Shown here piece by piece: positions 39,439 through 56,146 of a stretch of 64,000 nucleotides of DNA; the first letter of the stretch is position 1; each line of letters begins with the position of its first letter. Made by a program: the position numbers and the translations under genes. The stretch comes from Allacma fusca (taxonomy: Eukaryota; Arthropoda; Collembola; Symphypleona; Sminthuridae). Location: NCBI GenBank assembly GCA_947179485.1, contig OX359249.1, forward strand, positions 49,859,402 to 49,923,401, written 5' to 3'. The notes beneath the pieces were generated by a model. The model made no database searches. It saw nothing but the letters and a program-made list of their open reading frames with translations, and was not told where the DNA came from.

Positions 39439-40179
39439 GAAATATCACATTATACACAACGCTGTGAAAAATGCATGTATTAAATAATCAATCCCAGATA
39501 GCACAGGACAGGTTTTAGACGTCATATAATATGAAGAGTAACTGGTACACCAACTCATGATTATTTGGTCTCCAACAGAACAGAAACGTTTGTAACACCA
39601 GCAGATGAGACCCCTAGAGGCGTATCACAGACGTCTCATTTCGGGTACTAAACTGGTGCGTGAGTGGAGTGAAACTCAGGCGTAACTGATTCATTACTGG
39701 CACTGTTCTCGTTTCAAAGCCAGTTAACTTCCATATGCAAAAATGACCAAATTAAATGGTACATGACAAAAAACTATATTTCACGAATCTTCGTAAATAT
39801 TCATTTTTACTTAACACAGCAATCGTAACTTTTATACAATGAGAAAAACAAGAAATATAATTTTATATTTAATACCAAACGTATTAAAGCATGGCTGCTG
39901 AATTACAATGTAATATACAAATATACAAATGTAAGTTTAAAATTGATGTTATAAGTATATTCGAATTATTGAAATAATTAAAATGTGAGTTATTATATTT
40001 TGAGGGTAAAAAAGTGTAATTAAATGACGACCAGGAAAGTTTAAATGCCAAGTATTTCAGTTGGAATCTTCATCACTGCAGTTTACATTCTCATCCTGTG
40101 TAGTGTGCTGGAAGAAACTCTTTAAATCTATGAATACAAGAGATAAAATCTTTAACACAGAATGTATATACAACATAAA

Positions 40180-42173
40180 TCATTTGGCGTATACGGGGTA
40201 ATTTAAAGCAGCACCTTTCGACAACTTTCTTTCCAAACGTTGGTTAGCTCGCTTCAACCAGTCTCCGATTCCAATTTCCACGTCAAATGTCATCAAACCT
40301 TTACGAGTGAGTGGATTCTTTTTCAGACAAGCTGTAATAAAAACAATTTGTCAAATAGAAATTCAAATTGTTAAATCATCGCACTATACAGCATAATTAA
40401 AGCGTTCTTAATAAATACGTTTATTACTTAAAAATAAGGATTTCAATCGCAAATCCTCAAAGCACATTTTCTCGCGTTGCCCCTTGTAGCTAAAATTTGA
40501 CGCAACTTTATCGGACATAAGCTCTGCCAGCACTCTGTACAGAAACTTTGAACAGCTACGTCCACCAACACGGGACAGATGACTAATCTTAAATTTAAAA
40601 CAAGCGTTATAGGACAAAAATAATTAATCATATACATGCAATTGCCAGTCAATTTGTTTTACCAATTTTCGTTTGAAAACAGTATCCTGTGTGACCTGTG
40701 TACTTATGGCTTTGAGGTCTTCAACAGTTTCAGCAGGATTAAAATCGTCATCTTCAAATTCAGAGTCATTTTCAGGAACATTGCCCAGTTGAACTGAATC
40801 AATCTTTGCATGCAAATTTCTAACCGATTCCTGTATTTCAGAGAGTTGGCTCATTACAATCTCTAAAGTAGAAGTCCTTCTAGAAACTACAATTAAAATT
40901 GAGTTCAATGATTCCACTTATTTATCATTAATTTATGTTTTACTTCTGTGCATTAATGTGTGGTATATTGGAAACATTAAATTCCGGTGTCAAACACGGA
41001 GTTATTTAGCTAAACTATATATGTGAACTCCATTGTATTAATGCGTGATCACGAAAACTTTAAAATTTTACCTAATTCAGTTGGCGACAATACATCATAT
41101 GTGGAAGCCTCAGTATGCTGGGTAGTTTTCGAAGAAATGGGCAAAATGGAACCGTCAATATCAAACTGAATTTGAGAACCTCTACTTCTTTCCTGGGACC
41201 CCAAAGAAAATCCTTGAGATAGTTGGTCAGAATTCTCTACAACAAGCACTTCACGATCACATTCTACGCTGGAAGAGTCGGTTGTTTTCTCCGTGGTAAA
41301 TTCGGACTCAATTGTGACAGTTGCGGTCACTGGTTGAGGCGGTGGAGGTAACGTAATATCGTGCTGATTTTTCCGATTTTTTTTGCGATATTGCTGAGCA
41401 GCATCAGAACTTTCCAAATACTTTTCCTTCAATGAAGTCTGTGTTCGCTTTCTTTTTCGTCCTTCCGGTTCAGTGTCACTACACCAATCAGACATAGTGG
41501 TAGCTTTAGGAAGATCTTTGCGGTATTTCTCGAACGTATCTATATATGTAAGAATTAAACAATTTCATTTGACCTTATCATATTGAAATCCACACAATCA
41601 ACAACAATCGTTTGATACTCACTCAGAAAGTACGATAGCAAGATTAATTAATATACTGTTTCATAACAAATTATCAGAACTTTGTTTCAATCATAAATCT
41701 ACAAATATAAGTTAGGAACGTTCTTTGAAAACACAAACGTTTATCGTGCAAAAACGTATTTGTTTTGATAAATCTTCCCGTAACCATATTTTTTATTTCT
41801 GCTAAGTTTTAACAGAATCTAAATTTGAAATAGATTTAATGGATAAAATTTAAGCTATGCATGACAATTAATGCTTACATTGGTAAGAGTAATTTTGAAA
41901 TCATACAACGTGTCTGCGCAAAAACAAATATTTATAGAAACATAACATTCTGATCGATCTAGTGCAGCTTATATACATATATTTACCGTAAAAACAATTT
42001 GCAAGTTGGCCATTCCTTGCCCACCGCAGGCAGCGATTGGTTCTTCACAGCTTTATTGATAAATTCTGTCGATTTTGTTGGTGGCCACAGACAATCAATT
42101 TTATTTTTTTAATCCAAATCGATGGAACAACAGCAACACCCTCATTTTTTGTGAATTCTACAACACTGAACAT
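40180..42173 (-). CDS. DUF4806 protein of the CMC-like transposon (five exons)
   Basis: I place exons at 42173-41987, 41539-41072, 40886-40663, 40587-40428 and 40331-40180, all GT-AG with compatible phases (397 codons including TGA). Exon 1 begins MFSVVEFTKNEGVAVVP and, one frame over, DCLWPPTKSTEFINKAVKN, the usual N-terminal module of DUF4806 proteins. Exon 2 is charged and low-complexity, with a basic RKRKR cluster. Exons 3-5 form the DUF4806 domain: FKRKL, then SRVGGRSCSKFLYRVLAELM, then NFSYKGQREKMCFEDL, and finally a VEIGIGDWLKRANQRLERK helix. Exon 1 carries two 1-base homopolymer differences (an A-run near 42105, a T-run near 41993) that shift and then restore frame. Translated literally it meets a stop in between, so it is either slightly broken or mis-sequenced. 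Its function is unknown; its place inside the TIRs suggests an accessory transposition protein. Confidence 0.8.
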
Positions 42174-42321
42174 TCTCCTTATTCAAACAGCACCAGTGGA
42201 AACAAGGTAGTTTGATACGGTCCGCGAATCCGTTAGCTTGTAATTTTGACGCTTAATCTTAAAATCGGAAAGCGGGTGGACCTGCAATTCACCGAGTCTT
42301 TATTACATAAGATCCAGTTAG

Positions 42322-44226
42322 TTAGGAGTTGCATGGAAATTCAAAGAAATTTTTGTCAGCACATTCATAGCCAACTAGGACTTTCTGTCGAGATTGTTTC
42401 GACGTACATATGTTTTGGATTATAAAAATATTTCCATTTTTCAATTCTACACAGTTATCGCGGGGAAAATCTGATATTAAAATATTTGGCCCTAATCTTA
42501 TATATTCGTAACAGGGAGGCCCACAAGAATCTGGTAGTGAACGGGGCAAATATTGTTTATACTTGTGTCTTTTATAATCTGTCGTACTTGGCTGCACCGT
42601 ATTTATTTCATGCAGCCTTCGATGAATTTGCTGCAATACGCCATTAATTTTTTTAATCAGAGATTTTAGAAATCCGAGGTAATTTTCGAAGCGGAATGCA
42701 CTGAATTTATCAATAGGACCTAATTGCAGAACATCTTCACTTAAGTGTAACAACGAATGTACATTAATGGAAAAATTGTATTTTCCATAAATATTCCCGA
42801 AATGTTCAACACAATAAATCAACAATTCCTTTGCGTATTTATTGTGCTGAGTACATAGTACAGGATTTGCCAATATCGTTATGGCCACATGTAGAACTAA
42901 TAAATGCTGATAATGCTGTAATGGCAAAATTCCTTTCAAAACGACAGGACCGGAATATAGTAAAAAGTGTCTAAATTCCGTTGCTTTCCATCGTTTTACT
43001 TCATCTAGAGACCTAGGCCGTCTGTTGAAACTTATACTTGTCGCTGCACTTAATTTCTTCAAATGACTTGAAATTTGTAGGGACTGGGCTGTGGAAAGCC
43101 TGAATTTAGAAACTTTTCCGTTTAACCATAAAAGAATTAGTTTTTTGACAACACCTAAGCAAATTAAGTGCATATATTCGACGGGGAAACATTTGATTAA
43201 ATCTATGTGTAAATCTTCTATAATGCTTATTCCCGTATGATGTTGATCGTCTTCTTTATTTCTGAAGCTACAGTCGGTTCTGATAGGTGAATTCAGATCT
43301 TTAAAATATGTTCGATATTCTTCAAAGTTTCCTTCTATTATACACTTTCCACAACTTGAATAGCCAGTGTGACCTTTGGTACTCTTGACAAACGCACGAG
43401 CTGGAATATCACATACAAAGCATTGAATCTTAATTAGGTATGTTGTTCCATTAATGGTTACACCATTTTGAATGACACGTTTGCTTTCTTCTACAAAATC
43501 GCAAAGAAAGTCATTCACATTTTCTGGCTTATCTTTTTCTCCACACCAGAGCCCTACCACAAATGGATTTATGTCACTGTCAACAATGTAGCACAAAATT
43601 GGCACAAAATGTTTGTTGGAGCTTTTTGAAATAGGGATGCCATCAATGTTAAATTGAAGATTCAATAAAGTATCAGCAAGTGGAAAACTCTCAATATAAT
43701 TTTTTAAGCCATTTGATAATCCAAAATGACAGTAATACCCGGGACTCACTTTTTTAACGAAAGTTTTTCTTGGCGTGGAAACTAACGTTCGGGCATCCTT
43801 GGGTAACTTACTAAATTGCTTAAAATTTCGTATTTGGAGTATTTGAAGCAACTCATTTACATGTATATGCGGAACCTTATTTTTAACAGCCCAGATAGCC
43901 AAATCTTGTTGGGCATTGTCCACATCAACCGTGTCATTTCCGGAGTCACTTGAGTCACTTTCACTCACTTCAACATAAACTTGTGTACAGTCTGGATTTC
44001 CAGGCGTATTTCCAGTATTTGTCCAGGGAGAAATAATTCGTGGAGCAATATTTGGAACAATCGTATTTTCTTCATAGTTGGCTGCAAGAGGTTTTGAACA
44101 AACATTTGTAATAATTTGACCTAATTTCTCACCTTTATTTTTGCTGACGGTTGCCAATAGATCTTCTGTTTGCCTTTTAATGATGCGTCTATGATGTGCT
44201 TTAGAGTAGATCCTTGAAGACCGCAT
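42322..44226 (-). CDS. tnp2/CMC-like transposase (634 residues)
   Basis: A single uninterrupted 634-codon frame, the longest in the window. Recognisable landmarks in order: an N-terminal Lys/Arg-rich part, an acidic SESDSSDSGND stretch (about 90-100), LPKDARTLVSTPR (about 142-154), NIDGIPISKSS, NPFVVGLWCGEKDKPENVN, CDIPARAFVKSTKGHTGYSS followed by CGKC (a possible zinc site), PVEYMHLICLGVVKKLILLW, WKATEFRHFLLYSGPVVLKG, and NVHSLLHLSEDVLQLGPIDK before FSAFRFENYLGFLK. This series is typical of a widespread family of uncharacterised metazoan proteins related to plant tnp2 (CACTA/EnSpm) transposases. The family assignment comes from memory of those proteins. The candidate catalytic acids are the Asp of NIDG, the Asp of CDIPAR, and a late Glu such as that of FENYLG. 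It lies 149 bp upstream of the DUF4806 gene, transcribed the same way. Confidence 0.85.
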   Translation of the reverse strand: MRSSRIYSKAHHRRIIKRQTEDLLATVSKNKGEKLGQIITNVCSKPLAANYEENTIVPNIAPRIISPWTNTGNTPGNPDCTQVYVEVSESDSSDSGNDTVDVDNAQQDLAIWAVKNKVPHIHVNELLQILQIRNFKQFSKLPKDARTLVSTPRKTFVKKVSPGYYCHFGLSNGLKNYIESFPLADTLLNLQFNIDGIPISKSSNKHFVPILCYIVDSDINPFVVGLWCGEKDKPENVNDFLCDFVEESKRVIQNGVTINGTTYLIKIQCFVCDIPARAFVKSTKGHTGYSSCGKCIIEGNFEEYRTYFKDLNSPIRTDCSFRNKEDDQHHTGISIIEDLHIDLIKCFPVEYMHLICLGVVKKLILLWLNGKVSKFRLSTAQSLQISSHLKKLSAATSISFNRRPRSLDEVKRWKATEFRHFLLYSGPVVLKGILPLQHYQHLLVLHVAITILANPVLCTQHNKYAKELLIYCVEHFGNIYGKYNFSINVHSLLHLSEDVLQLGPIDKFSAFRFENYLGFLKSLIKKINGVLQQIHRRLHEINTVQPSTTDYKRHKYKQYLPRSLPDSCGPPCYEYIRLGPNILISDFPRDNCVELKNGNIFIIQNICTSKQSRQKVLVGYECADKNFFEFPCNS

Positions 44227-44294
44227 GGAAGAGCGATTGTACTTCAGATCAGCCTAAATGCAAATGGCAGTTTGCTTGGTTTAGTATATTCCAG

Positions 44295-46184
44295 CACTGC
44301 TGCCCGCCAAGTTTTAATTCTATTCTATTCTATTCTGTTTACAACTAATTCTTGTATATTCAAGTCCTATTATATTCTGCTAAAGGTTAGGCGAGGCTAT
44401 TCAAGTCTATTCCTATTCCAACAAAATTAGATAATTCCTATTCTATTCCTATTCAAATTCTATTCATCAGCAATTAAAAACCGTGCGCTGAAAACTAGTG
44501 GATAAAACGCGCTGTATAAATATAACTACATTTTCTTTCACAATTCCAATTTCCAGGTCCTTGAATTATAACTTGCTATTGACAATGATAATAAAATAAC
44601 TGATATTTACCAAATTTACGAGCCACTTCCAGGCAGAAGAGAATTAAATGGGCGTATAAATAATTACTTGTACTTAACAATTGGCAGTTAACAGGCCTGA
44701 ATTAATACAGTAATGCCTACCCTCAAAATATATTTCTAGCTTTCAGGGTGACGCCAGCCCCTTAGTAAAAAACCCTTGTCTGTACGTCCGTGCGGTATCT
44801 CAAAAACCGCTGCACGGATTTCAATGAAATTTATATTATAATGTTTTGAAAGAAATTCTGACATTAAAAAAAACTCAAAATTCGCCCTACTTCGTGGTAA
44901 GGAAGCGTCTACAAATTACGTCAGCTCGATAGTGGGTCCAACATTTAGTTGAAGTCTGACACGCAGGTGGATGGGTGCTGTATACGAGCGAATGACATTA
45001 TTACTGTCATCTGTCATCACTCATCAGCCTCATTTTATTACAAGGAGAGAATACGCACAAAAAATAAAATTGTATGGGATGACACCTCGAGTGTACAAAT
45101 TAAATCTCTTTATGAAGTCGCATGTTTTCTCTGCTCGAAAATGTAGTTTTGCATATATTCTACAGTTCACTTGATTTTCGAGTGATTCAAGGAACGGCAA
45201 TAAATGGCAACTTCTATCATTCTATGATTAGCATCAATGCCATAATACAATCAATGCCAGATGTATTTATCGATGCTAGTGCCTGTCAGTAAACATTTTA
45301 TGTAAGAATCAAGATAACGCATTAAAATGTCAAGCGCAAAAAACGATGGTGGATATCAATGGCAAGTACTTCGTAAACTATGGGAAGAAGCTAATGTTTA
45401 CAAAAAAGGATGAGTAGTTTTAAGTTTTTATTGATTATTGTAATCCTCTCATCAGTGCATCTCAAAGATGATCTACAAAGATTAACAACGCGACGGGAAA
45501 AAACAGCGACATCTCCATTGTATAATTTATTACGAATAATAGTAACAATAATTCCTGACCACCTGACCCATGACAAATCCAAACAGCAACGTATACAATT
45601 CCGTTCAGTAAACTTGAGTTCGGATTTTAGAATGTCTTGTTATGTTTAATTACACATTAAGTACTTCCTTCAGACTCGTCTGATTTTAATATACGAATCA
45701 ATTCACAGCTAAATTCGCTACTTTTAAATTTTGGGGCATTGTTCAATCGTAGCGTGTAAAGGTATGTGATGACATATAGCAGGGTGGGTGGGTCCAAGTA
45801 TCACTAAATGACCATATATGATTTGAGGGTGAGTGATTGGGTAATTAATGCATTTTGTGCTGATGTAATATGTAGACGCTCCCTAAGTGACGGCACCCTA
45901 CTCGCATTATCGCGTATCGATGATTTTTACACATGTAATCAAAGGGCTTTAGTTATTTTTTTTGTTTATGACATTCTCAGATGCTCAGATTTGAATAAGA
46001 ATTTCACTGTTTTTACTATTCAATTCTAATCTTGGCGTCAGGTGCATATTCTATTCTATTCTAGTCTGGGAGTTTCAAAAATCGAGCTATTCAATTCTAT
46101 TCAATTTATTTCTGTATAAATTTCGGCAATTCTATTCAAATTCCTATTTTCCTATTCAAGTCGGAATAGAATAGGGCAGCAGTG
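44295..46184. mobile_element. Non-autonomous hAT-type element, TATTC-word family, nested in the CMC element
   Basis: The terminal inverted repeats CACTGCTGCCC/GGGCAGCAGTG are perfect over 11 bp, and the 8-bp target duplication TATTCCAG is perfect (44287-44294, 46185-46192). Subterminal regions are filled with ATTCTATTC words (44318-44475 and 46050-46175). It lies 69 bp upstream of the transposase ATG, so it separates the CMC transposase from its terminal promoter region. A TCAGGGTGACGCCAGCCCC segment near 44743 looks like a Helitron-type start and may be a further nested piece. No coding capacity recognised. Confidence 0.9.
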
Positions 46185-46586
46185 TATTCCAGCCATTTAC
46201 AACGGTATCCGTTCTTTGTAAACATGCAATTTTAGCGCCAGAAATGATATGAGCGTAAAGACGTTTTAAAAACGTTGCCAGCATATTTTGTGGAGACCAA
46301 GAAGAAACCAGTTTGAGTAGTAATGTTTTGGTCACCGGCAGCTTTCAAACACAATTTAAAAACATCTCTTAGTTAGAAACGAGTTTAACCCCGAGTGGGA
46401 CGAAAAACCTCGTATGTTAAACTCGTCCTGTGCTATTTGGGATGGATGTTGAAGGCTTAGTTTTAATGGTTTTTAGCGAATCTAGCTCATCTGCGCAGAT
46501 ACTATACTTTTTAAAACAGTTATGTGAATTTGTGGTTGTGGCTTTCCTTACTTCCAGCACTGAACGGATTCCTTTCTAATAGGTCA

Positions 46587-47360
46587 TAGGAATGGGACTG
46601 TTCTGGTCCGGACAAGAAATTTTGGTCCCTTCTGGTCTGTTCCATGGTCCGTTCCGGTCTGTTCCATGGTCCGTTCCGGTCTGTTCCCTGGTTACGAAAG
46701 GACCAAATGCATCTGGTCCAAGAACCTTGATAGACCAATTAAACCTGGTCCAGCTCAAAGAACAGACCAGAATGCTTGGTCCTTTGTTTGGCCCGGACCA
46801 TTTGGAACGTTCCATCAAACATTTCAAATGATCGGAGCAGATTCGATAGATGACCATTTAAGTATTTCCAATTCCCGCGAATAGAATAGCATTGTTAGAT
46901 TGTACAGCATGATACGATCGAGAGACGATACATAAAAAATATAAAAAACAAAAGATAGTTATCATTCAACGTGCCCTGGAGAACATTCTTGCCTCCTGAA
47001 TGATTCATTGTGTCCGAGAGACGTTAATATTTAGTATTGGGTAGCAAGGAAAACATTTGTGAAAATTCCTGTTGTAAAAATATTTAAAAATTGCAATTTT
47101 CAGTGCTTCATTCATTATCATTTTGCTAACAATTTTACACTATGTTTCAAATAATCAAATAATTTTTTTTGCGTTATTTTGAGGAACAGAACATATGTTC
47201 CTGTTCCAGAAATTTGTACCGACCAGAGGGTTCCGGTCCTAGTCTAAATGACCTTATGGGCCTGGTCCTACACTGAGAACAGATAAAATGGTCTGGTCCA
47301 GGGTCAAGGACCAGACCATTCCAAGAAATCCTGGAACATTCCGGAACAGTCCCACTCCTA
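46587..47360. mobile_element. hAT-type MITE, GGTCCG/GACCAG-word family
   Basis: The ends TAGGAATGGGACTGTTCTGG and, inverted, TAGGAGTGGGACTGTTCCGG are flanked by a perfect 8-bp duplication ATAGGTCA (46579-46586, 47361-47368). Many GGTCC, GGACC and GTTCCGGTC words crowd both ends. It interrupts the hAT transposase pseudogene between the LPALNGFLS and ALKSYFLL segments. Excision of the element plus one target copy leaves the frame open. The open frames inside are only translations of the words. Confidence 0.92.
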
Positions 47361-51108: not shown

Positions 51109-51827
51109 GAAGCCGGGAAATAAAATGAAGTAGTAGAGGTTTCTTTTTAACCTTAGTTTAGATCAATTTATTTAGATGTTACTCGTGTTGCATAGACACA
51201 TTGACATTCTTATTGCTACACATATGCCAAACTGTTCTTAGGTAGTAAATAATAGAACGTTTGTTAAAATCATGTAAAACGTTTTTTATGTGATTGTCCA
51301 GCAGACGATACCTCTTCTGTGGAGGAGGTGGGTTGTTTTCCGCCAAGAATTGTATGACCTGAGTCTAGTCATATTCTGCTCCTTCATGAAGTTTTCAGCA
51401 CACCTCCACAGAGGTGAGTGACTCACGCCGGTCATGGTTTCATAGCGCGTGTGCCATCCCTCGAGGTTATAATTTGTCCGATGTTATCTTGCAATACTGC
51501 ATCGTGAACATTTCACACACAGATTGAACCGGGCTGGTCGCCATTGGCCGCGTCTCGGAGGAGTTCCAACCCACGTTTCTTCGAAGTACTGAATCAATGC
51601 TTGTATGCCATCAATAATCTTGGTTGACGATGTGGGTTTTGATTTCCTATATCAACGAATAGACTTCTTGTAATTTTACTCCATGGATGCATATAAAATG
51701 AACGAATCTATGCTATAGAGACCGGATATCTTATACATAATAAGGTCTCAAATGGTCCAATGGAACAAAAGCGACGAGGGCTGGAAAATGTCTCATTAAA
51801 AGAGCAAATTCAGCGTTGCTTCGGTAC

Positions 51828-52162
51828 CTGGAATATAAAGGAGCAGGCAATATAAAAACAATGCTTAGTGTCATTGCAAAGCTAATGCTAAGTGTCATTG
51901 TAAAACCAATGCTAAGTGTCATTGTAAAACCAATGCTAAGTGTCATTGTAAAACCAATGCTAAGTGTCATTGTAAAACCAATGCTAAGTGTCATTGTAAA
52001 ACCAATGCTAAGTGTCATTTTAAAACCAATGCTAAGTGTCATTGTAAAACCAACGCTAAGTGTCATTGTAAAACCAATGCTAAGTGCCATAGCAAAACCA
52101 ATGCTAAGTGTCATTGCAAAGCTAATGCTAAGCATCATTTTAAAACCCATGCTAAGCGTTAC
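51828..52162 (-). other. Candidate intron made of minisatellite in the MULE gene
   Basis: On the minus strand the coding sequence stops at MGLQ and resumes at YRSNAEF, exactly where MULE proteins are continuous. GT at 52162-52161 (ACA|GTAACG) and AG at 51829-51828 (CTTTATATTCCAG|GTACC) would join the two parts in frame without loss. The 335-bp interval is almost entirely the 24-bp minisatellite. Confidence 0.6.
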
Positions 52163-52171
52163 TGTAAACCC
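51860..52171. repeat. Minisatellite array 2 (13 units of 24 bp)
   Basis: Thirteen tandem units with consensus AATGCTAAGTGTCATTGTAA plus AACC. Units 2-9 are almost identical and edge units are diverged. The last unit extends over the exon/intron junction of the MULE pseudogene. Confidence 0.97.
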
Positions 52172-52824
52172 ATATGCTTAAAGCGAATGAATGCAAAATA
52201 CCTGTCCAGTATTGACCGTATTCCTTGGATCTGCCGCCATAGACATTGCTGGAAGTTGAAGAAACATCCCCGTATTTCCATTTCAGGAAAGGCCTGTCGA
52301 AAGGCGTTCATTACTGCGTATTCAAAATTGGTCATTATTGAGCTTGGTGCAAGCTCTACCTTCAGTTCTTTTAAAGCGGAAGCTAATCCTGCGTATGTTC
52401 CTTCCGTTTTGTTTGGCAGCAACGCAAACACAGTAGGCAAAGACCAGCACAAATGAAACCCATGTATGGAATAGATTTGATGAAACGGAAATGGGCACGT
52501 TTTGAATTCCATGTACCAATCTCAGTTCTCCGCTAAGATGTTTAAATCCCGTTCGGTTGTGAATACAACCATTCTTTGCGGTCCGGGTCCACTGTCATGT
52601 AGTAGAAAATTTCTCCAGTTGTTGCTTTTAGGTAGTCAGGCATGATAAGATATAACAATGAAGTTGGTAGACTTTCATTTCTGCCGATGGCTTGCCTCGT
52701 TTTTCTATCATTCTAGGCAAGCTTCGAGCTACCGGCATATGCGTTATTGCGCCTTCTTCTACCCCATCCAGTACATTAGCGATTATGTTGACAGGCCTGT
52801 CGTTTGTTTCGATCGCCTTTCTCT

Positions 52825-54499: not shown

Positions 54500-56146
54500 C
54501 AGTGGCTCACCTACGGGGAGGGTACAGGGGGTACATTGTACCGCGTAAAAAGTCCCCTAGAGGGGTACAAGCATAGACTTGTGATCTCCAGAAAAGGTTG
54601 ATAACATGATAGAACACAGAAACTGAACTCCCCCTAATTATACAAAAGTAAAGGTGGATGTTAATTATCACAGAACCCAAATCAGGTTCTGTTAATTTCA
54701 GTCTCAAAAAGTACGACTGTTGCAATATAGCAGTGCATCTGGTAATCAAATTTTCCACTTTACAGGCTATTTCATCCAGCCATATTTTTTTAAGCAATCA
54801 ATGCAGTGTGGGTTTATGAACTGCATGATTGCGTCTAACAGCAACCTGCTAATTTTCGAGTGAATTATCAAAAATAATGGAGATTATAAATCCATAAAAG
54901 CAGGTGCCATGACATTTAACGTATCAATGTTTTGTGTGTACGTATTTCTTTGTTCTTTTACAAATTTTGCATCAGTGATTTGTTTGTTAAAGTTTTTATG
55001 GGGTTTCCAAATGCACATGAAATTAAATTTCTGGTTATTGTAAATTTTAATTCTGATTTTATAAAAATATTATCATTATCGGCCAATGTATGGAACTTGT
55101 GTCACAAATACACTGCAAAATAATGAGTGTCTCTTAAGTTTTTTGCACACACTGGCGAAGTCAGCGGGAAAATGTGTAACTTAAGTATCTGGATTATACA
55201 CACAGCTTATTTTCACAGGAACTTATTTTGGTTTGCTCCTTCTACACAACATTTTGAACCCAACCGAGATTTTGAGCAAAATCACACAAACACGGCGTTC
55301 TACCATCAGTGGCACTGTTCAAGCTTCGAATGTGTGCATTGACAATTTTAGAAAGCAGAAACGATAGAACGTCTTCAGTGTGCTTTGGAATCGCATTGAG
55401 GAAGACTGTGACGGTTTGCATTTAGAACGTTCTTCTCTTGGCCGAATCCACAAAACACCAAAGCGGTATGGAATAAATAATCCACCTGTCTTTACAACTG
55501 CAGAAGTGAATTACCAAAACATATCAACAATTTGATCGACCTTGTTGTTGTGGAACTCAAGCGTCGTTTTGATTAACTCTGGAGCACCAAGTAGATGCTA
55601 TATCAGATTTGTAACAGTTCAATTCTGAGAGACTTAATCATCAAATGACTGTGTTCACGAGATTGTAGGAGTAGAGAGCAGCTCTATAACAGAATTTTTG
55701 TCATGGTTTAAGGTCTGTGTCCCAGAAGTTCGTCAAATGTTCTCCGAAGTTAAGAACTTTTTAAACATTTTAATCGTTCTCCCAATCAGCTCCGCTACAG
55801 CTGAGAAATCATTTTCCACTTTACGGCGCATAAAAACATGTAAGATCCGTAATTGGACAGGAAACATTGCTGCGTCATTCACTGCTTCCCAGATATTGCA
55901 AAGCAACGACATTGAAGAGCTCATGATAACCTTCGTGAATAATGACTACCGCCAAAGGGTTTTTGGAATTTTTTTAATGTTTTTTACCGAATTTAGTTAT
56001 CACCCTGTTCTGCTCTACAAAAACGCAAAAGTCGCAACACATAAATAAAAAACACGAAAAAATATGGCACACTTTGTCATTTACATGAAGCATTTTTGGC
56101 GAGGGTCGTTGTACCCCCCACTTTTCCCGGCGAGGTTTAATCCCTG
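54500..56146 (+). mobile_element. hAT relic (ZMYM-type), limits tentative
   Basis: A left edge CAGTGGCTCACCTACGGGGA with GGGGGTACA and a right edge whose reverse complement is CAGGGATTAAACCTCGCCGG with GGGGGGTACAAC are weakly alike, as expected of decayed hAT ends. I find no target duplication, so the limits are a guess. The transposase remnant at 55330-56048 gives the class. Confidence 0.4.
55330..56048 (+). pseudogene. hAT transposase C-terminal remnant
   Basis: Plus strand: RIHKTPKRYGINNPPVFTTA followed by EVNYQN (about 55460-55520), then in another frame VVELKRRFD, and an open frame at 55698-56048 with LPISSATAEKSFSTLRRIKT. The last is the conserved motif of the hAT dimerisation domain. 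The pattern is the ZMYM/52-kDa-repressor branch, unlike the ZBED-like copy at 38380-48225. Frameshifts show it is dead. Confidence 0.8.

Follow-up and report, generated by a model that had tools for sequence, protein, structure and literature searches.

What does a gene for a domain of unknown function do inside a transposon? The question is raised by a 64,000-nucleotide stretch of the genome of the collembolan Allacma fusca (GCA_947179485.1, contig OX359249.1, positions 49,859,402 to 49,923,401 of the forward strand; hereafter the window), in which positions 39493-46441 are a transposon with a gene for a tnp2-related transposase and a DUF4806-type gene. A reading of the window's letters alone (the original prediction) had placed both genes in one mobile unit, and that claim was borne out. 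We propose that the element is a decayed transposon of the TRC type, within the CACTA superfamily, whose relatives encode two proteins, and that the DUF4806 protein is most likely a counterpart of plant TNPA, a factor that binds the element's ends. Below, we describe how often the two genes occur together in the genome, what the second protein probably does, how the element is classified, and what has become of the window copy.

Recurrence of the gene pair across the genome

The element is bounded by terminal inverted repeats (TIRs) that match at 16 of 17 positions: CCCAGATAGCACAGGAC at 39493-39509 (+ strand), at the 3' end relative to the genes, and CCCAAATAGCACAGGAC at 46425-46441 (- strand), at the 5' end. 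The dinucleotide AT flanks the element on both sides (39491-39492 and 46442-46443) as a 2-bp target-site duplication. When the 392.7-Mb genome, the source of all elements described here, was searched with both window ends, five further copies of the same family were found (L014-L018). Their start and end bases are those of the window element, give or take one chance base, so that the ends at 39493 and 46441 are exact and the TIR-bounded unit had been delimited correctly. A 2-bp duplication was present in five of the six copies (AT, TT, CC, TA, and AA), the exception being L018, whose right terminus has since been lost. One more locus (L013/L019, C8:58959153) matches the right end only and was excluded, as a fragment, from the 14 elements considered here.

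We then looked beyond the window family. The genome was searched with the transposase, the best 70 of 1444 candidates were scored, and eight elements from six other families were completed; these eight were chosen because near-identical copies fixed one of their ends. Their transposases are 43-62% different from that of the window element. All eight carry CCC at both ends, match at 12-16 of 17 positions between the ends, measure 4,642-5,469 bp, and are flanked by exact 2-bp duplications (TA, TC, TT, TA, GA, AG, TG, and TG). At their left ends, CCCAR and AGCAC are separated by two variable bases, and the right end of L034 has GGCAC. At least one CCC end was thus found in 14 of 14 elements (the window element, L014-L018 with L018 one-ended, and the eight others at both ends), and a 2-bp duplication, as had been predicted from the window copy, in 13 of the 14, including all eight from the other families.

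Between these ends, the second gene lies downstream of the transposase gene and on the same strand. Both the six-copy alignment of the window family and the divergent families point to five exons separated by GT-AG introns, and spliced alignment recovered the same exon order in all eight divergent elements, incompletely in some. The predicted protein begins with an N-terminal VVEF..CxWPP module and ends with a DUF4806 part that spans exons 4 and 5. The gene is open in L025, L026, and L034, and DUF4806 was the only Pfam match under E 0.1 in the spliced proteins of L026 (398 residues, E 5.7e-4) and L034 (399 residues, E 1.7e-4). Searching the genome with the PF16064 profile at E 1e-3 gave a single place over the cut-off among 137 candidates; this low yield probably reflects the intron that interrupts the domain. 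A TRC-type transposase (33-38% identical) lies upstream of this sole place over the Pfam DUF4806 cut-off.

The pairing was also counted by position. We compared 91 distinct transposase places with 161 DUF4806 clusters, using the first exon match per gene and DUF4806 matches down to about E 0.05 and 0.02. These lists hold the best 66-70 of roughly 1,450-1,520 transposase candidates and the best 150 of 203 and of 379 DUF4806 candidates; because the best-scored candidates alone entered, the counts are lower bounds and are biased toward close relatives of the queries. A DUF4806 match was found within 9 kb downstream of at least 66 of the 91 transposases, on the same strand in all 66 and at a distance of 1.2-2.7 kb in 64, and upstream of none. 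For the reverse view, every eighth of the 95 DUF4806 clusters that lacked a listed transposase was sampled; the 1.3-3.3 kb upstream were inspected in all 12 and the 2.5 kb downstream in the six without an upstream match. A transposase adjoins 11 of these 12 clusters, on the same strand and within about 3 kb. In six, it lies 1.3-3.3 kb upstream, once as a 62-residue fragment (L060). In the other five (L070, L072, L073, L074, and L075), the DUF4806 gene comes first and the transposase (31-42% identical) follows, and these reversed pairs are candidate units by position, their ends not being established. The single miss (C8:50034475) adjoins a reverse transcriptase. The original prediction therefore survived its own refutation check within this genome, with eight elements of six other families carrying both genes between matching ends and with the pair present, by position, at many more loci.

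Two further observations were made. Upstream stretches at the reversed-order loci contain CCCAGCAACACAAAGT (L065) and CCCTAATAGCAC (L067), the latter like the TRC end of Tribolium; no matching partner ends were found for them. On C9, four DUF4806 matches on one strand, at intervals of about 12 kb (2809926, 2821878, 2833830, and 2845831), form a tandem array, and the short transposase fragment L060 lies upstream of its last member, 2845831.

Role of the DUF4806 protein

Several lines of evidence suggest that the second protein acts together with the transposase. Across seven families, distances between the proteins encoded by exons 4-5 follow those between the transposases closely (Mantel r 0.905, equalled or exceeded in 9 of 5040 permutations). 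In all five pairs compared, codon mismatches in exons 4-5 were fewest at position 2 and most numerous at position 3, the pattern expected under purifying selection. Short motifs are also concentrated near the termini. Summed over the seven families, ACGTC and AAACGT each occur 22 times within 250 bp of the ends, against 2.0 and 1.75, respectively, predicted from the inner parts. As a control for each family, we ran 1000 first-order Markov simulations of 300 bp; for L015, L027, L031, and L034, no more than 12 of these attained the observed count of ACGTC and/or AAACGT. In L041 and L045, it is TTTAAGA that clusters instead (0 and 2 of 1000 simulations), with GATATC clustering in L041 alone. These clustered motifs are candidate binding sites, a designation that is only suggestive.

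There is a precedent for such an arrangement in plants. TNPA binds subterminal repeats in plant CACTA elements. It is described as a DNA-binding protein that is essential for transposition and acts on the promoter of its element (PMC1636069, as far as the available text of that report goes). Like En/Spm, the elements described here appear to encode two proteins, one of them of the tnp2 type, and carry clustered subterminal motifs, and we propose the other protein as the end binder. The plant elements differ in having CACTA ends and in producing TNPA and TNPD from one alternatively spliced unit, whereas the transposase gene here is intronless. A second connection to DNA binding comes from the domain itself, as DUF4806 is termed a BEN subtype in the accessible text of PMC11075544, which cites Pan et al. 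2023 for this label. With the BEN-domain family, the second protein shares a DUF4806-type module in C-terminal position, the BEN label being one by citation; what sets it apart is the location of its gene within a transposon.

The linkage of the two genes and their co-divergence, together with the clustered motifs, the BEN label, and the example of TNPA, lead us to a model in which relatives of the window element would encode two proteins on the same strand, a tnp2-related transposase of the DDE type and a predicted five-exon DUF4806 (BEN-type) protein. The latter would bind short repeats that lie immediately internal to the CCCAR..AGCAC ends, pair the two ends, and recruit the transposase. 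The transposase would then cut at CCC and insert the element with a 2-bp stagger at target sites that have no obvious sequence preference; this last step is proposed because the elements have such ends and duplications and because acidic residues, taken to be catalytic, are conserved. From sequence comparison we infer the splicing of the second gene, the DNA binding of its protein, the sites bound, and its need for transposition, and we regard this model as probable.

The strongest alternative is that the DUF4806 protein is an element-borne regulator (a repressor, an anti-silencing factor, or a chromatin factor) that is dispensable for cutting and joining. The action of plant TNPA on its element's promoter, besides its being essential (PMC1636069), lends this some weight, as does the fact that no DUF4806 gene was detected beside 25 of the 91 listed transposases. 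Same-strand linkage and joint divergence suggest a core role instead, and the clustering of subterminal motifs fits end binding, though such sites could also serve a regulator. We consider a purely regulatory role unlikely.

A number of results count against the proposal of an end-binding partner and should be weighed with it. The DUF4806 scores of the spliced L026 and L034 proteins (20.6 and 22.3 bits) lie under the curated cut-off of 25. Judged by eye from the alignments, the second gene is damaged in all six copies of the window family; among the divergent elements, it has a stop in exon 2 in L027 and a disrupted exon 1 in L031, spliced alignment missed exon 3 of L041, and the exons of L028 and L045 are singly open while the attempted joins gave no single frame. 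No DUF4806 match was found at the threshold used for the 25 transposases mentioned above, six of which show weaker matches at the expected distance (by eye). In the stretches fetched for the five reversed-order loci, with extra downstream sequence for two, no convincing TIR pair was seen. The motif evidence is uneven as well: ACGTC is weak in L025 (32 of 1000 simulations), neither ACGTC nor AAACGT is enriched in L041 and L045 under the Markov control, and the motifs were picked after viewing many k-mers, uncorrected.

DeMarco et al. (2006; PMC1636069) asked that the DNA-binding role proposed for second proteins of TRC elements be tested, and a linked, co-diverging DUF4806 gene is a definite candidate for such work. 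Plant CACTA elements need two proteins, and the DUF4806 domain, listed as being of unknown function, would gain a proposed job. Annotators could also come to assign 'uncharacterised' DUF4806 genes to transposons.

Placement among TRC elements

The kinship of the window transposase (P0001) with tnp2 was assessed through its relatives. The PF02992 (tnp2) profile scored over its cut-off at C1:7408927 and C8:63171269, both of which lie within members of the P0001 match list, so that the kinship is supported via these relatives, P0001 alone being insufficient. In an alignment of 13 transposases, whose other members are 39-97% identical to P0001, residues D195, D273, C292, C295, H329, H330, and E514 are invariant. 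Weak or sub-threshold Pfam matches occur among the 13 to DUF4218 (in six), DUF1258 (in four), and Transposase_21 (in two, best E 3.6e-4). The motif set given for CMC transposases is D, D, C(2)C, H(3-4)H, and E (PMC12730594, available text), and the invariant D, D, CxxC, and E of our alignment appear close to this set, not identical with it, if their catalytic roles are assumed.

TRC elements of animals and fungi were defined by DeMarco et al. (2006; PMC1636069). According to the part of that report available, animal TRC TIRs start with CCC (Tribolium, CCCTAGTAGCACCG..; Aedes, CCCAGTCAAC), and the elements are flanked by 2-bp repeats, measure 4.5-9.2 kb, and have an open reading frame with a Transposase_21 domain. 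The Schistosoma elements encode second proteins from spliced transcripts, without similarity in other TRCs, and a DNA-binding role like that of TNPA was proposed for them. The elements described here share the CCC start, the 2-bp repeats, probably the Transposase_21-type frame, a length in this range, and a second protein that would come from a spliced transcript. They differ in that PrA and PrB of SmTRC1 were reported as lacking similarity to other TRCs, while the DUF4806-type gene recurs across families. Another related element is Spongebob (EnSpm-4N1_HM) of Hydra and insects, called a TRC by its authors, with the TIR CCCAGCCAACATTGAC, Hydra ends starting CCCAGCCAAC.., and 2-bp duplications (PMC4298943, available text). 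The same text leaves the exact transposase of Spongebob unsettled, with stops and frameshifts, and makes no mention of a second gene.

Because its CCC ends, 2-bp duplications, and tnp2-related transposase match those of published animal TRCs, we assign the window element to the TRC type of the CACTA superfamily and to no new clade. The original prediction had taken the non-CACTA, non-CACTG ends as a sign of a distinct CMC-related clade, apart from known CACTA and TRC elements. Its description of the ends was accurate, and two further observations agree with such a view and weigh against our own. P0001 had no Pfam match over the cut-off, showing a sub-threshold score to DUF4218 and one to E7 alone, and the H(3-4)H motif was not seen in any of the 13 transposases, which have the invariant adjacent histidines 329-330 in its place. 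Sequence searches of the PDB with the two alignments found no relative with a solved structure. A single-sequence fold of the transposase was uninformative (mean predicted local distance difference test score, pLDDT, 35.4) and was left unused. CCC ends with 2-bp repeats are, however, the published TRC mark, present in Tribolium (CCCTAGTAGCACCG..) and Aedes (CCCAGTCAAC) according to the available text of PMC1636069 and in Hydra Spongebob (CCCAGCCAAC..) according to that of PMC4298943, and PF02992 scored over its cut-off in two members of the family. A separate clade is therefore very unlikely.

It is scarcely credible that one or a few transposons picked up DUF4806 accidentally, as a passenger from the host, even with DUF4806 annotated in zebrafish genes and Hydra gene models in the available text of PMC11075544 and PMC7642931, given that the pair recurs in seven families with distance matrices in step, that at least 66 of 91 transposases have a DUF4806 gene, and that 11 of 12 sampled other DUF4806 matches adjoin a transposase. 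With CCC ends and 2-bp repeats already known, the recurring DUF4806 partner gene appears to be the new part. We did not find the link between DUF4806 and transposons in the literature searched, of which some sources were available in part; Repbase and most subscription journals lay outside this search and may record it. A broader proposition, toward which we remain somewhat doubtful, is that animal TRC/CACTA elements have DUF4806 as their defining second gene, its product being a BEN-type end-binding partner of tnp2-type transposases. Most animal DUF4806 genes would then be transposon genes or their descendants, and DUF4806 may have given rise to some host BEN-type factors.

The window copy and its surroundings

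The window element is genuine and belongs to a known kind of transposon, but this copy has decayed. Its transposase gene (42322-44226, - strand) is an open frame of 634 codons plus stop, as originally predicted; it ends 47 residues short of the end of its sister L021 (679 codons). The exons of the second gene, all on the - strand, were placed on the six-copy alignment. Exon 1 (41987-42173) would encode the MFSVVEF..CLWPP module, its frame being broken in the window copy, where 14 bp are missing at the exon end and an A-run is shifted. Exon 2 (41072-41539) is long and of low complexity, basic and proline-rich, and exon 3 (40663-40886) covers the acidic SEIQESV..FEDDDF region. Exon 4 (40428-40587) gave a PF16064 match of E 0.043 on the open reading frame alone, under the cut-off, and has an AAG acceptor where the five other copies have CAG. 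Exon 5 (40180-40331), placed by eye, has a CAG acceptor, with the stop codon at 40180. The five-exon pattern of the original prediction is supported by the six-copy alignment and by divergent families, its attribution to DUF4806 is made through sub-threshold Pfam scores, and an intact copy is what the window lacks. In L015, damage to the second gene is confined to exon 1, and exons 2-5 give one open frame.

The 6.9 kb first given for the unit describes its span correctly and is ruled out as the element's own length. The other copies of the family measure 4.6-5.1 kb, and the difference is due to an unrelated 1,890-bp insertion (44295-46184), some 70 bp 5' of the transposase start codon, which is missing from the five other copies and is not part of the element proper. 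It has 11-bp ends (CACTGCTGCCC) and is flanked by the 8-bp duplication TATTCCAG at 44287-44294 and 46185-46192. Presumably, a duplication of this size marks a hAT-type non-autonomous element. The first 206 bases of the insertion were searched against the genome, and the best 40 of 168 candidate places, its own included, matched at 97-100%, all from base 1. Because these 40 scored places match so closely, the insertion is probably a high-copy element that spread recently.

One claim about the surroundings was not confirmed. The insertion was said to be proven by the frame continuity of a hAT gene around it. When the flanks were joined, no uninterrupted frame across them exceeded 59 codons, and the longest gave no Pfam match at E 1. 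This comparison covered unspliced frames, and continuity of that kind was rejected. Six open reading frames neighboring the element gave no Pfam match at E 0.1. The only hAT domain among ten window proteins scanned is a Dimer_Tnp_hAT match at 55638-56045 (+ strand, E 1.7e-4), apparently a separate hAT remnant. A repeat rich in GGTCC/TGTTCC units begins at about 46587-46800 of the window and has 387 candidate places in the genome, of which the best 40 were scored. Farther along, at 51734-52453, there are long low-complexity frames built of short repeated units (KCHCKTNA and TLSIGFAM).

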